A DNA stretch of 64,000 nucleotides from Myxococcales bacterium (lineage in GTDB: Bacteria; Myxococcota_A; Polyangia; Polyangiales; Polyangiaceae), in contig CAHJWM010000006.1 of the NCBI GenBank assembly GCA_903642325.1, positions 62,001-126,000 on the forward strand. The letters are read 5' to 3'. The translations under genes and the position numbers were made by a program. Below, one piece after another: positions 56,718-62,778 of this stretch. Within the stretch, counting starts at the first letter, position 1; each line of letters begins with the position of its first letter. The notes below the pieces were generated by a model, which was given only the letters and a program-made list of their open reading frames with translations, was not told the DNA's origin and searched no databases.

Positions 56718-58189
56718 CACTGTCGGTCCGACCGCGGCCCGGCGAGTCCGGGGCGGTGAAGCTCGAGGAAGCGCCACCGCGCGTACTGGTCGTCGACGAC
56801 GAGCCTACCTTACGCCGCACGCTTGCTCGCTTGCTGAACAGCCGTAACATGACGGTTTTGACGGCCGACGACGGGGCGCAGGCCATCGCGCTCTTGGCGC
56901 GCGAATCGGTCGATGTCGTGCTCGTCGACTTGATGATGCCGAACGTGGGCGGGCTCGAGCTCCTCGACCACGTGCGTGCGTCGCACGCAGGCGTGGAGGT
57001 CATCATGATGACGGCGTTCGGCGACGTCGAGACCGCGGTCAAGGCCGTGCGCGCGGGGGCTTACCACTTCCTCACCAAGCCTTTTCGCTCGAACGACGAG
57101 GTGGTGCTCACCGTCACCAAAGCGGCCGAGCGACGGCGGCTCGTCGACCGCGCGCTTCTGCTCGAGCGACGGCTCGAACAGATGGAGAAATTCGGGGAGC
57201 TGATCGGCAACTCCAGCGCTATGCAAGAGGTGTATCGGCTGGCGATCGGAGTCGCGCCGACATCTTCGACCGTGCTCATTCTAGGTGAGAGCGGCACGGG
57301 TAAGGAGCTCACCGCGCGCGCCATTCACGGCCATTCGGCGCGCGTCAGTAATCCGTTCGTTGCCGTCAATTGCTCCGCGATTCCCGTCGACCTCGTCGAG
57401 AGCGAGCTATTTGGGCACGTGCGCGGGGCCTTTACCGGTGCCACTGCCACCCGCGCCGGCCTGTTCGAATCGGCCGACCGCGGCACGTTGTTCCTGGACG
57501 AGGTCGGGGATTTGCCGCCGCTGGCGCAGGTCAAACTGCTGCGCGCGCTGCAGGAAGGCGAGGTCAAGCGCGTCGGTTCGAACGAGACGCGTATCGTCGA
57601 TGTGCGCGTGGTGGCCGCCACCAACGTCGACCTACGGAGCCGCATCGCCGCTGGGCGCTTCCGTGAGGATCTTTATTATCGCTTGAACGTCGTACCGATC
57701 TCGCTGCCTGCGCTTCGTGAGCGACGCGAGGATATTCCGCTGCTCGCCTATCACTTCTTGCAAAAGTATGCGTCGCGCTCCGGCAGCCAAGTGAAGAAGA
57801 TTTCACCGGACGCCATGCGCCTCTTGGCGGCGCATCATTGGCAAGGCAACGTACGTGAGCTAGAGAACGCCATCGAGCACGCTGTCGTATTCTGTCGGGA
57901 CGACACCATGACCCCGGGTGAGCTGCCGTTCGGCCGACCCAGCAATGGAGCGCCCGCTGATACCGCAGCGAGCAATGGCGCGGATGCTCCCAACGACACG
58001 CTTTTCGAGCTTCCTTACCGCGAGGCCAAGGAGCAGTCGCTCGAGGCCTTCGAGACCGCGTATTTCGTGCGCCTTTTGCAGCGCACGCAGGGCAACGTAT
58101 CGGAGGCAGCGCGCCAAGCCGGGCTCGACCGTTCGAATTTTCGGCGCGCGGTCAAGCGAGCTGGCGTAAGAGTTCGCGACGACGAATGA
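56714..58189 (+). CDS. sigma54-dependent response regulator (NtrC type)
   Basis: 491 residues from a GTG overlapping the previous stop, with a purine-rich AGAGGAAG upstream. Receiver ([10 protein letters not shown], Asp in VVLVDLMMP, Lys in TKPF), AAA+ domain with Walker A GESGTGKE, the complete GAFTGA loop in [13 protein letters not shown], Walker [13 protein letters not shown], the R-finger region DLYYRLNV, and C-terminal Fis-type HTH ([21 protein letters not shown]). This is the textbook active form, in contrast to the two NtrC-like proteins at the left of the window. It should activate sigma54 promoters when phosphorylated. Co-transcribed with the cyclase and the TolC-like gene (ATGA overlap). 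Confidence 0.93.
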
Positions 58190-59622
58190 CCCGTTCCTGG
58201 ATATTCGGCCGAGCGGGCACGCGTAGCGCTCTGCTCCGAGTTGCATGCCTAGTAGGGCTTTCTACCTCGGCTGGCCATGCGCGAGCGCAAGACTCTACCG
58301 AGGCCCTGAACGCTGCCGCAAGCTCGCTGCCGCTCGCCGCCCCGCATGCGCGCGTGTTGTCCTTGAGGCGATGTCTGGAGCTTGCCGTCTTGAACTACCC
58401 ACGGGTGGCGGAAGCGCGCGCACGCTTGCTGCAAAAACGGGCGCAGCTCGACCAAGCCTTCAGCGCACCGTACAGCGACTTCACGATGACGGGCGGCGTC
58501 GGTCCGGCCCCGACGGTGCGCGGCACGTCCGTCTACAGCCCGGACACGGACAAGGCCATCACCAACCACCTGGGTATTGCTTGGCAGCTCGGCGTGACGG
58601 GTGCAATTCCGCTTTGGACGTTCGGCAAGATCAGCAATCTTTGGGACGCGGCCGACGCGCAAGTGCGGGTCGGCGAGCACGAGGTGAAAAAAGAGCAAAA
58701 CGACGTGAAGCTTACCGTGCGCCGCGCGTATTACGGCGCGCAACTGGCACGCGATGCGCTCACGCTGCTGCGCGAAGCTTCCGGCCGCATCGATTCCTAC
58801 CTCGGGCGCATGCAAAAACAAGTCGATCACGGGGAGGGGGACGACGTCGCGCTGCTCAAGCTAAGGATGTACCGAGCGGAGCTCGATGCGCGTCAGAGCG
58901 AAGCCACGCGCCAAGAATCCATCGCCATTTCGGGCCTCCGCTTCCTCACGGGCGGTCCAGATGTCGAAGTGCCCGACGCGCCCCTCCAGCAAAGCAGCCA
59001 CCGGCTTGCCCCGCTCGCTCACTACCTGTCAGCGGCGCGCTTGTATCGCCCGGAAGTAAACATGGCGCGCGCGGGTGTGCTGGCGCGCGAAGCGCAGGCG
59101 CGCATGGAGCGCGCCAAGTATTTCCCCGATCTCGCGCTCGGTATGAGCTTCAATTACTCCGCCGCACCGCTGGTCGAAGACCAGAGAAACCCGTTCGTGC
59201 GCGACAACGCCAACTTCCTCAGCTACGGCGCGGCCCTCGTTTTCAGATACAAGCTCGATTTCTTGCCTCAGTCGGCTCGCCTGGCGCAAGCCAACGCCCA
59301 ACTCGAAGAACAGCGCGCGACCGAGCGCTACGCGTTGGGCGGTGTCGGTACCGAGGTGGAGCAAGCCTTTCTGGAAGCGGAAGACGCCGCGCGCCGTTTA
59401 GACGCCTACACGCGCGCTACGGGCTACGCCAAGCAGTGGCTAATCCAGATCCAAGAAGGCATCGACGTCGGCACCTACGAGAACGAAGATATCGTCGACC
59501 CCGCAAAAGAGTACGCTACCAAGCGCTTTTTACAGATGAACGCCACCTACGACTACAACATCGCGCTCGCCAAACTTGCCCAAGCGACGGGTTGGGAAGT
59601 CGTCACCGGCGCCGACGAATGA
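58186..59622 (+). CDS. TolC-family outer-membrane efflux protein
   Basis: 478 residues. A signal peptide ([15 protein letters not shown]) precedes the two-fold repeat of the TolC family: [33 protein letters not shown] at about residue 60, and [41 protein letters not shown] in the second half. Long helices with Ala heptads lie between barrel strands. It would be the outer-membrane part of an efflux or secretion system, but no inner-membrane pump or fusion protein is nearby, so its partner is unknown. Last gene of the run from 52495, overlapping the sigma54 regulator by ATGA. Convergent with the Fic gene. Confidence 0.88.
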
Positions 59623-59748: not shown

Positions 59749-61713
59749 TCAGTCGTCGCCGCTGTCATCGTCGGAATCGGTCTCGCTGTCGGAGTCCGAG
59801 TCGTCCATCTCTTGGTCGAGATACAGGTCGGAGTCGTCATCGCGCGCGGTCGCGGCCGCGGCCACCGCCGATGTCGGCTTCTCGGACTTCTCCGACTTTT
59901 CGTCGCCTTTGGGCGGCGAAGAAGAGCGTGACTTGGTGGCGTCGTGGTCTTCGATCTTCTTTTCGATGCTGAGGAGCGCATTCATGATCGACTCGCTCAC
60001 CATGGACACGATGACGGGTAGCTGGCCCTTCAACGCTTCGTAATAGCGTTGCCGCTCTGTAGAATGAATGATCGCCGGCGGGTGGCCCGCCCGCATCAAG
60101 AGCACGTTCATCAATAAGCGCGAGACCTTACCGCTGTCTTGCGGGAACGGAAATACGCGCAGCAGATCATAGTGGATGCGTGCCGCGATCCGGATCGGGC
60201 TCTTCAGCTTTTTCGGCTCCGGCCCGTTCAGCCAGTCGATCACCTGGCGCGCCTTGTACGCGATCTTGTCGGGCGCTGCGTACTCGTGAAAATACAAGCG
60301 ATGCTGCGGGATGTCCTTTCGGTACTTCACCGTCTTCACGTCGCCCTCCTCCGGGTGGAGGATGCAGTAGATCTTTTTGATCGTATCGACGCTGATGGGA
60401 ACGCGCTTCTTCTCCGACAGCTCGCGCACGTACTCGATGGCCTGCCGATGCCGGCGGATCTCGTCGCACACAGGCTGAAGCCCGGAGTCGGCGACCACGC
60501 TCATGTTCGGGTCAATCGCCGTCTTCAGCTCTTGAAAAGTGTACACGACGCCTTCCAACGCGCTGTCGTGATAGACCCACGACATCTCGAAGCTCTCGCG
60601 GTATTCGCGGTGAAACTGATCGTCGAGGCCGTTCAAACGCTCGTTGATAGTCGCCCAGCGCTCTTCGACCGAAAGCTGGGGCGGCGGAGGTGACGGAGGA
60701 GCGGCGGCAGCGGGCACGGGCAACGCCGGGGCGGCCTGCCGCGGCGGATCCTGCGCTATTTCCGGCAGGCGGGTACCGAGAAGCTTCTGCCGTTCCTCGA
60801 GCTCTTGGCGGCGAGTGGTGCCTGACTGATTGGGGATCGTGTCTGCGCGGTACTGACGAGTGGTGACGCCCCGGCCAATGCCATCCCCGCGCTGTGAGCG
60901 CTTGCTCGCGCGAGCAACTTTGCCCTCTAAGGCGCGCCGCGCGGCCTCGCGCTCGGCCCGGATGCGCTCGCGCTCGGTTTCCTTGGCTTTGCGGTAGGCT
61001 TCGCGCTCCGCATCTTTTGCCTTCTTCTCCTCGTCCTTCAGGCGCTTCGCTTCTTCGCGCGCGGCGTCCCGCTCGGCGATCTTCTGAAGCCGCTCTTCTT
61101 CGCGCTCACGCGCGATGCGCTCTTTTTCGGCGTCCTTGGCCTTTTGGGCGGCCACGCGCTCGGCGTCTTTGGCTTTCTGAGCGGCGACGCGTTCGGCTTC
61201 TTTTACTTTGAGCCCGGCCACGCGCTCGGCGTCTTTGGCTTTCTGCTCACGCGCGCGTTCTTTCTCGCGCTCTTTTTTCTCGCGCTCGGCGGCCTTGGCT
61301 TTGGCGGCCTTTTCGCGTTCGGCGTCTTTGCGGAGCTTTTCGCGTTCGCGCTCTTTTTTCTCGCGCTCGGCGGCCTTGGCTTTGGCGGCCTTTTCGCGTT
61401 CAGCGTCTTTGCGGAGCTTTTCGCGTTCGCGCTCTTTTTTCTCGCGCTCGGCGGCCTTGGCTTTGGCGGCCTTTTCGCGTTCGGCGTCTTTGCGGAGCTT
61501 TTTGCGATCCACCGGTGGCCGAGCGTCGGCCTTGGCGGCCTTTTTCTTGGCGGCCGTTCGCTTGGCGACTACGCGAGGCGCCTTTTTCGGCGCACGTTTG
61601 GGCTTTGCGGCCGGCTTTTTGGTCGCCGGCTTTTGGGCCTGTTTACGTCGATTAGGAGCGGCCTTCGCCTTGGCGCGGCCGTTCTTCGGAGGAGCTTTCT
61701 TTCGGACGGACAT
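59749..61713 (-). CDS. degenerate Fic-domain protein with repeated charged coiled coil
   Basis: 654 residues from the ATG at 61713. Residues 1-65 are Lys/Ala/Pro-rich, like a histone-H1 tail. About 65-275 is a highly charged Lys/Glu/Arg helix with a 27-residue repeat present three times (KLRKDAEREKAAKAKAAERE core). From about 370 a Fic region follows: SALEGV near the inhibitory helix position, then the catalytic loop. Active Fic enzymes have HPFx(D/E)GNGRxxR; here it reads FPFPQDSGKVSRL, so the catalytic His, the Asp/Glu, the Asn and the first Arg are changed. AMPylation activity is therefore unlikely. The C-terminus is acidic (DSDSDSETDSDDDSGDD). Function unknown; DNA or protein scaffolding is a guess. 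Confidence 0.8.
   Translation of the reverse strand: MSVRKKAPPKNGRAKAKAAPNRRKQAQKPATKKPAAKPKRAPKKAPRVVAKRTAAKKKAAKADARPPVDRKKLRKDAEREKAAKAKAAEREKKEREREKLRKDAEREKAAKAKAAEREKKEREREKLRKDAEREKAAKAKAAEREKKEREKERAREQKAKDAERVAGLKVKEAERVAAQKAKDAERVAAQKAKDAEKERIAREREEERLQKIAERDAAREEAKRLKDEEKKAKDAEREAYRKAKETERERIRAEREAARRALEGKVARASKRSQRGDGIGRGVTTRQYRADTIPNQSGTTRRQELEERQKLLGTRLPEIAQDPPRQAAPALPVPAAAAPPSPPPPQLSVEERWATINERLNGLDDQFHREYRESFEMSWVYHDSALEGVVYTFQELKTAIDPNMSVVADSGLQPVCDEIRRHRQAIEYVRELSEKKRVPISVDTIKKIYCILHPEEGDVKTVKYRKDIPQHRLYFHEYAAPDKIAYKARQVIDWLNGPEPKKLKSPIRIAARIHYDLLRVFPFPQDSGKVSRLLMNVLLMRAGHPPAIIHSTERQRYYEALKGQLPVIVSMVSESIMNALLSIEKKIEDHDATKSRSSSPPKGDEKSEKSEKPTSAVAAAATARDDDSDLYLDQEMDDSDSDSETDSDDDSGDD
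61263..61505 (-). repeat. 81-bp tandem repeat, three copies, inside the Fic gene
   Basis: The copies are spaced exactly 81 bp: matching anchors begin at 61321, 61402 and 61483. Base differences between copies are few. Each unit encodes 27 residues of charged helix, so copy-number change would keep the frame. Confidence 0.85.
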
Positions 61714-61962: not shown

Positions 61963-62778
61963 CTACTTGAAGTAGTCGGGGAAAATTTCGCTGTTAGCGA
62001 GCGGCCGGTTGCGCTCCGTCAGCACCTCTACGCCGCTCTCGGTCACGAGCACGGTATGCTCGAATTGAGCTGAAAGAGAGCCGTCTGACGTAACGGCGGT
62101 CCAGTCATCATCTAAAACGTCGACCTCCCACGAGCCGATGTTCACCATCGGCTCGATCGTGAAGGTCATGCCGGGCTTCAGCCGCTCGCCCTTCCCCCAG
62201 CGACCATAGTGCGCGACCTTTGGCTCGTCGTGAAACTTACGGCCGATGCCGTGGCCCACGAAGTCACGCACCACGGAGCACCCCTGACCCTCGGCAAACT
62301 CCTGAATCGCCGCGCCCAAATCGCCGAGCCGCGCGCCGGGGCGAACCTGGGCAATGCCCAAACAAAGCGAGCGCCGTGCCACCTCTACCACGCGGCGAGC
62401 CTCCTCACTGACCTTGCCCACGTAGAAGGTGGCCGAGGTGTCGCCGTGGAAGCCCTTGTAGATGTGAGTGACGTCGATATTGATGATATCCCCGTCGCGC
62501 AGCACGCGTTCGCCGGGGATGCCGTGACACACCACCTCATTCACCGAGGTGCAGACGCTTTTTGGAAACCCTTTGTAATTGAGCGGCGCCGGTCGCGCGC
62601 CCTGCTTGAGGGTGTGGGCGTGCACGAAGCTGTTGATCTCTTCCGTGCTCAGCCCTGGGCGCACGATCTCACCAACGGCGGAGAGGGTCTCTGCGGCGAG
62701 CTGCGACACGACCCGCATTGCGTCGATTTCGGCCGGCCCCTTGATTTCGACTGCTGAGCTACGAAAGTGCATGTCCAT
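61963..62778 (-). CDS. map: methionine aminopeptidase, type I
   Basis: 271 residues. It removes the initiator Met from nascent proteins. The metal ligands are all in place: Asp in INIDVTHIYKG, Asp in HGDTSATF, His in GHGIGRKFH, Glu in FTIEPMV and Glu in FEHTVLV, with the substrate-site His in VVCHGIPG. There is no N-terminal zinc-finger extension. The ATG at 62778 starts MDMHFRSS; an internal ATG two codons on is equally possible. Confidence 0.96.
   Translation of the reverse strand: MDMHFRSSAVEIKGPAEIDAMRVVSQLAAETLSAVGEIVRPGLSTEEINSFVHAHTLKQGARPAPLNYKGFPKSVCTSVNEVVCHGIPGERVLRDGDIINIDVTHIYKGFHGDTSATFYVGKVSEEARRVVEVARRSLCLGIAQVRPGARLGDLGAAIQEFAEGQGCSVVRDFVGHGIGRKFHDEPKVAHYGRWGKGERLKPGMTFTIEPMVNIGSWEVDVLDDDWTAVTSDGSLSAQFEHTVLVTESGVEVLTERNRPLANSEIFPDYFK

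Follow-up and report, generated by a model that had tools for sequence, protein, structure and literature searches.

The closest described relatives of the protein reported here are the class-II Fic AMP transferases, among them FICD (HYPE). Removal of AMP by FICD also requires the catalytic histidine of the Fic motif, HPFx(D/E)GNGRxxR. Several proteins depart from this motif. In Bartonella, BepC, Bep5 and Bep8 have a Fic fold with a degenerate motif (PMC7842960, PMC8401265); in the text available, BepC works non-catalytically by recruiting a partner, a precedent for a non-catalytic FIC domain (PMC7842960), and Bep5 and Bep8 are described as having degenerate motifs and intact folds (PMC8401265). 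The plant-pathogen effector AvrB has a Fido fold without the usual motif and a known glycosyltransferase activity, as a rhamnosyltransferase in the sections consulted (PMC10866546). CbFic2 and CccR, as far as the available text goes, join an active Fic domain to a helix-turn-helix DNA-binding part (PMC10628234, PMC9755527). Khater and Mohanty described Fic clades that lack crucial residues and are possibly inactive or altered in function; the word Myxococc- is absent from the available portion of their text, as is any class-wide conserved family of the kind described below (PMC4454073). Nor is such a family mentioned in the accessible text of a 2025 AMPylation review (PMC12409994), and a search of titles and abstracts in the open-access literature, with most subscription papers and all preprints outside its scope and hence weak as evidence, returned no paper on it. 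In the portions of the literature covered, most Fic domains that lack the canonical motif occur in secreted effectors, each from a single genus.

The gene considered here lies in a window of 64,000 nucleotides (the whole stretch of DNA analysed) from a Myxococcales bacterium. It encodes a 654-aa protein with the following parts:

59749..61713, minus strand: whole gene, 654 aa, with its ATG at 61713 and a third-position GC of 0.67-0.88 throughout
61516..61713, minus strand: Lys/Ala/Pro-rich tail, aa 1-66, predicted to be disordered from its composition and low pLDDT
60895..61506, minus strand: charged helix, likely a single alpha helix, aa 70-273, from composition and AlphaFold
61265..61506, minus strand: 81-bp tandem repeat, 3.0 copies, within the helix
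60805..61038, minus strand: helix end and linker, aa 226-303, from an alignment of 13 long members
59914..60675, minus strand: pseudo-Fic domain, aa 347-600, from Pfam, AlphaFold and fold comparison
60544..60579, minus strand: inhibitory-helix motif WVYHDSALEGVV, aa 379-390, retaining Glu387 but having Asp383 where Ser/Thr is usual
60283..60324, minus strand: flap region YRKDIPQHRLYFHE, aa 464-477, modelled as coil
60118..60153, minus strand: changed catalytic loop FPFPQDSGKVSR, aa 521-532
59752..59913, minus strand: Asp/Ser-rich protein end, aa 601-654, predicted to be disordered from about aa 603

The ATG matches the first Met in most of 12 aligned relatives (L007 begins three residues earlier); a longer frame with a TTG start is also present. 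The high GC at third codon positions extends across all five parts of the protein, so the odd tails also fit coding sequence. Named by eye, the neighbours are a methionine aminopeptidase-like gene upstream on the same strand (61963-62778) and a convergent TolC-like gene downstream (58186-59622).

The domain is recognised by the Pfam Fic family (PF02661) at 39.9 bits against a cut-off of 24, and 95 of the 95 members of profile A2 match PF02661 at E <= 0.01. By sequence, the closest solved relative is FICD (E 9.6e-19). An AlphaFold2 model of the domain, built on a 95-row alignment, has a mean pLDDT of 94.3 and a pTM of 0.88. Its top Foldseek match is again FICD (E 1.2e-10, 22% identity), which also leads by VIA-align (Z 26.0, rmsd 2.6, 241 residues aligned); among the matches listed by VIA-align there are only Fic and AvrB-type chains. 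AvrB itself stands lower in that list (Z 12.8), with 9% identity in the aligned part. The predicted fold bears out the original prediction that the Fic helices flanking the loop persist. The flap is coil in the model here, unlike that of FICD. Partial matches, all far under their cut-offs, to the NCBIfam families XopAC, mobile mystery protein B and SoFic, and of the acidic end to SURF2, were set aside.

Compared with HPFx(D/E)GNGRxxR, the loop FPFPQDSGKVSR has Phe for the catalytic His (Phe521), Gln for the metal-binding acidic residue (Gln525), Asp for the first Gly, Ser for Asn (Ser527) and Lys for the first Arg, while it keeps PF, the second Gly and the last Arg. The loss of the His, the acidic residue, the Asn and the first Arg had been predicted from the window sequence and is confirmed. 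The changed Gly was considered as the counterpart of the nucleotide-blocking Gly of Bep8, but this was rejected; in the text available, the Bep8 case concerns the other Gly (PMC8401265). The inhibitory helix departs from the class-II motif (S/T)xxxE(G/N) in that Glu and Gly are kept but the Ser/Thr is replaced. The protein is like FICD in its fold, in its inhibitory-helix Glu and in the last Arg, and differs from it in the catalytic His, Asn and first Arg as well as in this Ser/Thr position.

The same replacement is found in relatives. Family members were chosen from all fetched loci by a profile score of at least 115 bits, with the motif ignored; this gave 192 distinct sequences, of which L305 and L306 were removed as canonical on reading, leaving 190. 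The scoring profile was itself built from the pseudo-Fic family, the rows carry bacterial class labels assigned by locus number, and the loops were read in the fetched loci, a subset of the matched genomes. An aromatic residue stands at the catalytic position in 187 of the 190 (Phe 121, Tyr 58, Trp 8), the others being His, Ser and Leu once each. The Asn position holds Ser in 163, Thr in 11, Pro in 11, Asn in 4 and Ala in 1. The Pro that follows the His position is present in 189/190, the second Gly in 187/190 and the last Arg (Arg532 of the window) in all 189 rows with a letter there. None of the 190 distinct sequences has the intact motif, whose presence in a close relative had been named at the outset as a refutation, since it would speak for local decay or sequencing error. 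On sequence grounds the view that the protein is derived from Fic and is not an AMP transferase is well supported. One member read, L088:7345-8175, has His at the catalytic place (IHPFARHSGKLARL), with the remaining motif changes intact.

Conservation extends to the inhibitory helix, where the family pattern is H-D/E-x-x-x-E/D-G: His is found in 186/189 rows, the Ser/Thr position is Asp or Glu in 189/189, adding an acidic residue, and the inhibitory Glu position is Glu in 184 and Asp in 5 (n=189). Five positions are invariant (Gly388, Arg465, Arg532, Arg554 and Tyr557), and most residues that vary little or not at all are polar or charged. Judged by the alignment with FICD, canonical Fics often retain the corresponding residues, so these five positions may be structural. 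From PF to SG the sequence depends on lineage; an Asp precedes the Ser in 69/71 sequences of the window's group, and elsewhere His or Asn usually stands there. All 36 rows grouped with the second of the three bacterial classes introduced below (two of these rows being canonical) have the metal-binding acidic residue, as does part of the third class.

In a quick IQ-TREE analysis, 95 members of the family were set against 32 canonical Fics drawn from the same collections, and one branch (SH-aLRT 94) separates the two groups. This favours a single origin of the family but falls short of proof, because the loop columns were included, some of the canonical sequences sit on long branches and the tree is unrooted. 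Among 89 close pairs from 73 sequences, the median dN/dS is 0.139 (range 0-0.41); the pairs were ungapped, with dN < 0.2 and dS 0.05-1.2, a filter that biases the values low. On these estimates selection on the gene is purifying. Local decay to a pseudogene, or a sequencing error in an ordinary Fic gene, would account for the absence of the four usual catalytic residues, but the same replacement recurs across 190 distinct sequences under purifying selection; this reading is contradicted and is given practically no probability.

The family is widespread in three bacterial classes, the window's class, that of locus L072 (the second) and that of genome G305 (the third), which are inferred to be Polyangia, Myxococcia and Bradymonadia. 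The window's class was searched with the 247-aa domain and the other two with profile A2. In the window's class, 277/289 genomes match at E <= 1e-5 and 275/289 at E <= 1e-20; among the nearest relatives the figure is 89/97. The gene is also matched in G187 (E 9.8e-34), whose 1.6-Mb genome is 98% complete. The second class gives 116/116 genomes at E <= 1e-5 and 115/116 at E <= 3e-66, the exception being G546, whose lone match is a canonical Fic. In the third class the figures are 55/57 at E <= 1e-5 and 46/57 at E <= 1e-30; one weaker match there, in G411 (L221), was read and is also a canonical Fic. Within a sample of the window's phylum, profile A1 is matched in 144/282 genomes at E <= 1e-5; outside the window's class all matches at E <= 1e-25 (44 genomes) fall in six families of the third class, and the other classes of this sample seem to be without the family. 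A search bearing on other phyla confirmed 43 loci from 75 candidate stretches, all titled myxobacterial or delta-proteobacterial, by a method that reaches close relatives only. Matches in 178 plasmid and 5 phage records all have below 60% identity (22-32% among the matches listed) and look like ordinary Fics; three plasmid Fics that were read carry HPF[IV]DGNGR. The Beps are secreted effectors of one genus, and BepC retains its His; the gene described here is, by contrast, chromosomal and spread through whole classes, and its product has an aromatic residue instead. The breadth of the family, its uniform loop replacement and the tether specific to the window's bacterial family are the new points.

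No universal partner gene was found within 1.5 kb among 151 loci with context; linkages shift with lineage, and the idea of a fixed genomic partner was dropped. Every second-class locus with context (19/19) has a DHH/DHHA1 phosphoesterase gene within 1.5 kb downstream in the same orientation, for example at L303:6545-7606, and in 10 of the second-class loci a cysteine desulfurase-like gene follows it within 1.5 kb. A branched-chain aminotransferase gene is found upstream in 7/19 second-class and 9/28 third-class loci, and a GTP cyclohydrolase II gene is adjacent in 13/28 third-class loci and in 5/23 loci from other orders within the window's class. Elsewhere in the window's order, in other families (L076-L107), a sensor histidine kinase gene is found just upstream in 19/29 loci; an Omp85-family gene lies farther upstream in 19 of the L076-L107 loci. 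In the window's group (52 loci, two families) the neighbours, named by eye, are recN-like and divergent in 20, map-like and upstream in 12, and TolC-like and convergent in 11. A GroEL gene beside the gene in L072 was considered as a link to the chaperone target of FICD and set aside, as it lies within 1.5 kb in 1/19 loci of that class. To judge by these gene names, the neighbourhoods are mostly of housekeeping type, unlike a toxin-antitoxin or defence island. A Fic/Doc toxin-antitoxin module was set aside as unsupported: no antitoxin-like neighbour cluster was found, and the distribution in the window's class (275/289 genomes) is not the patchy, mobile one of such modules.

Outside the Fic domain the protein of the window is unusual in composition. 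Its first 66 residues include 18 Lys, 18 Ala, 9 Pro and 8 Arg, with pLDDT below 50 at all but two positions, and its last 48 include 15 Asp and 9 Ser; the Lys/Ala/Pro tail of H1-like (or HMGA-like) composition and the acidic end that had been noted at the outset are both real features, as is the repeat within the helix, whose 81-bp copies match at 98%. In an AlphaFold2 model of the full-length protein, built from 13 full-length rows, aa 70-273 form a single unbroken helix of 204 residues, with low confidence at 1-66 and 603-654; the mean pLDDT is 69.8 and the pTM 0.46, and long helices of such a type are easily over-predicted. The original prediction had called this part a charged coiled coil. 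The a and d positions, however, hold 0-3 hydrophobic residues (I, L, V, M, F, Y, W, C) per 8 (28 aa), or 2-6 with Ala included, and pairs of opposite charge at i+3/i+4 are more frequent than in shuffled sequences (2/2000 reach the value). Because of these few hydrophobic positions and the charge pairs, a charged single helix is likelier than a coiled coil. CbFic2 and CccR resemble this protein in joining a Fic domain to a DNA-binding part, here a candidate tail; the comparison, as far as the available text on them allows, is of a helix-turn-helix and an active Fic with a disordered basic tail and a changed motif. The DNA-binding tail of Myxococcus CarD is reportedly the subject of published papers.

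Lys/Arg-rich N-terminal extensions in the window's bacterial family range from about 10 aa to several hundred. Outside that family most members have little before the Fic domain; a few have longer frames, with unsure starts. Thirteen aligned long members have in common the segment EAYRKAKxxERERxRxxREAARRALEGKVARAxKR...YRPDxIPNQSGTTRR, and in them aa 226-303 are much better conserved than the preceding tail and helix. A profile of this segment found at most 25 distinct ORFs, each of them a pseudo-Fic, and it was often the charged helix that was matched rather than the segment. A long acidic end (57-86 aa, 18-36% Asp+Glu) is present in six proteins, all of the window's genus. Seen in the window's bacterial family and highly variable in length, the basic tail and charged helix look like an add-on apart from the core function. 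Since the tail, helix and linker are specific to the family and the acidic end to the genus, the main function of the protein is unlikely to be nucleic-acid binding. That the Fic domain is a mere folding module, with tail, helix and linker doing the work of a nucleic-acid-binding protein, would suit the H1-like composition, the long helix and the conserved linker; as it is the Fic domain that is conserved across classes, and most members elsewhere have little in front of it, this is very improbable.

What the alignments and the model establish is the loss of the catalytic His, the retention of the Glu and last Arg, the predicted fold, the breadth of the family and purifying selection. The gene is probably not a broken one but codes for a functional protein, either a binder or regulator or an enzyme whose chemistry is new. 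The reading preferred here, by a modest margin over even chances, is of a vertically kept pseudo-Fic held in the inhibited shape and exerting a regulatory or adaptor function through binding. On this view a Fic fold of FICD-like (class II) type would have lost AMP transfer once, early in these bacteria, and would have been kept as a core gene since. Glu387 and Arg532 may lock the domain permanently in the inhibited shape, with the inhibitory helix staying docked, and the aromatic side chain would occupy the place of the catalytic base, as far as can be told for the pocket from alignment with FICD rather than from coordinates. A ligand with a phosphate group, or else an acidic peptide, is suggested by the invariant Arg residues and the His-Asp pair: it would be bound by Arg465, Arg532 and Arg554 together with His382 and Asp383, and through this binding the domain would act as regulator or adaptor. 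In the window's bacterial family, the basic tail on a rigid helix of ~30 nm might tether the domain to an acidic surface such as nucleic acid. Of the original prediction, the suggestion of a scaffold or binder is plausible, and its interpretation as a whole is partly supported.

The main rival to the binder reading is a Fic-fold enzyme with new chemistry, in which a new active site would be made up of the H-D/E-x-x-x-E/D-G helix together with the three Arg and the S-G-K loop. The strict conservation of the His, Asp/Glu, Glu and three Arg is equally expected from an altered enzyme, and the mostly polar or charged character of the conserved residues suits one, as does the phosphoesterase gene downstream in every second-class locus. 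AvrB offers the precedent of a divergent motif with rhamnosyltransferase activity, in the text available (PMC10866546). The metal-binding acidic residue of the second class and part of the third, the lack of a partner gene shared by all classes, and the single His member L088 likewise speak against the binder reading. Set against an enzyme are the lineage-dependent residues from PF to SG and the chance that Gly388, Arg465, Arg532, Arg554 and Tyr557 are structural and were inherited from canonical Fics. With residues of pocket type invariant, an altered enzyme is a possible reading, held with clearly less confidence than a binder. A narrower proposal, removal of AMP or another phosphodiester group with the inhibitory Glu (which supports deAMPylation in FICD) as the working residue, is consistent with an acidic residue kept there in every row, but the FICD reaction needs the catalytic His, here mostly aromatic. 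AMP removal has also been proposed for the degenerate Bep8, in the text available (PMC8401265), but that proposal relies on Glu replacing the second Gly, and the position is nearly always Gly here; the idea is improbable. Also tentative, and no better placed than the altered enzyme, is the broader claim of a core protein in three classes of myxobacteria and their kin that has a new active or sensing site, a novel Fido chemistry or ligand and a housekeeping role. A changed Fic kept in nearly all sampled genomes of whole classes is a clean case for non-canonical Fic function, and the large natural alignment of pseudo-Fics is a source for choosing residues to test.

Canonical Fics occur alongside the family. 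PF02661 gives 1 to 10 matches per genome in 116 genomes of the window's class, where a single match may be the pseudo-Fic itself, and a canonical-type motif is present in 28 ORFs within 30 fetched loci of that class. Another Fic-family ORF in the window's genome, on a small contig (L001, G000:C125), carries the Doc-like motif HPFIDGNKR. In the second class, a long second copy (87-124 bits) was considered as a further family member and rejected, the five loci read (L305-L309) being Fics with His and GNGR; in L307 the Asp of the otherwise intact His and GNGR motif is replaced by Gly. L070, L072 and L074, also of the second class, carry in alignment A1 a charged insert of ~20 aa, such as ERRERTEKELAKEKE, directly before the YRKD flap segment.
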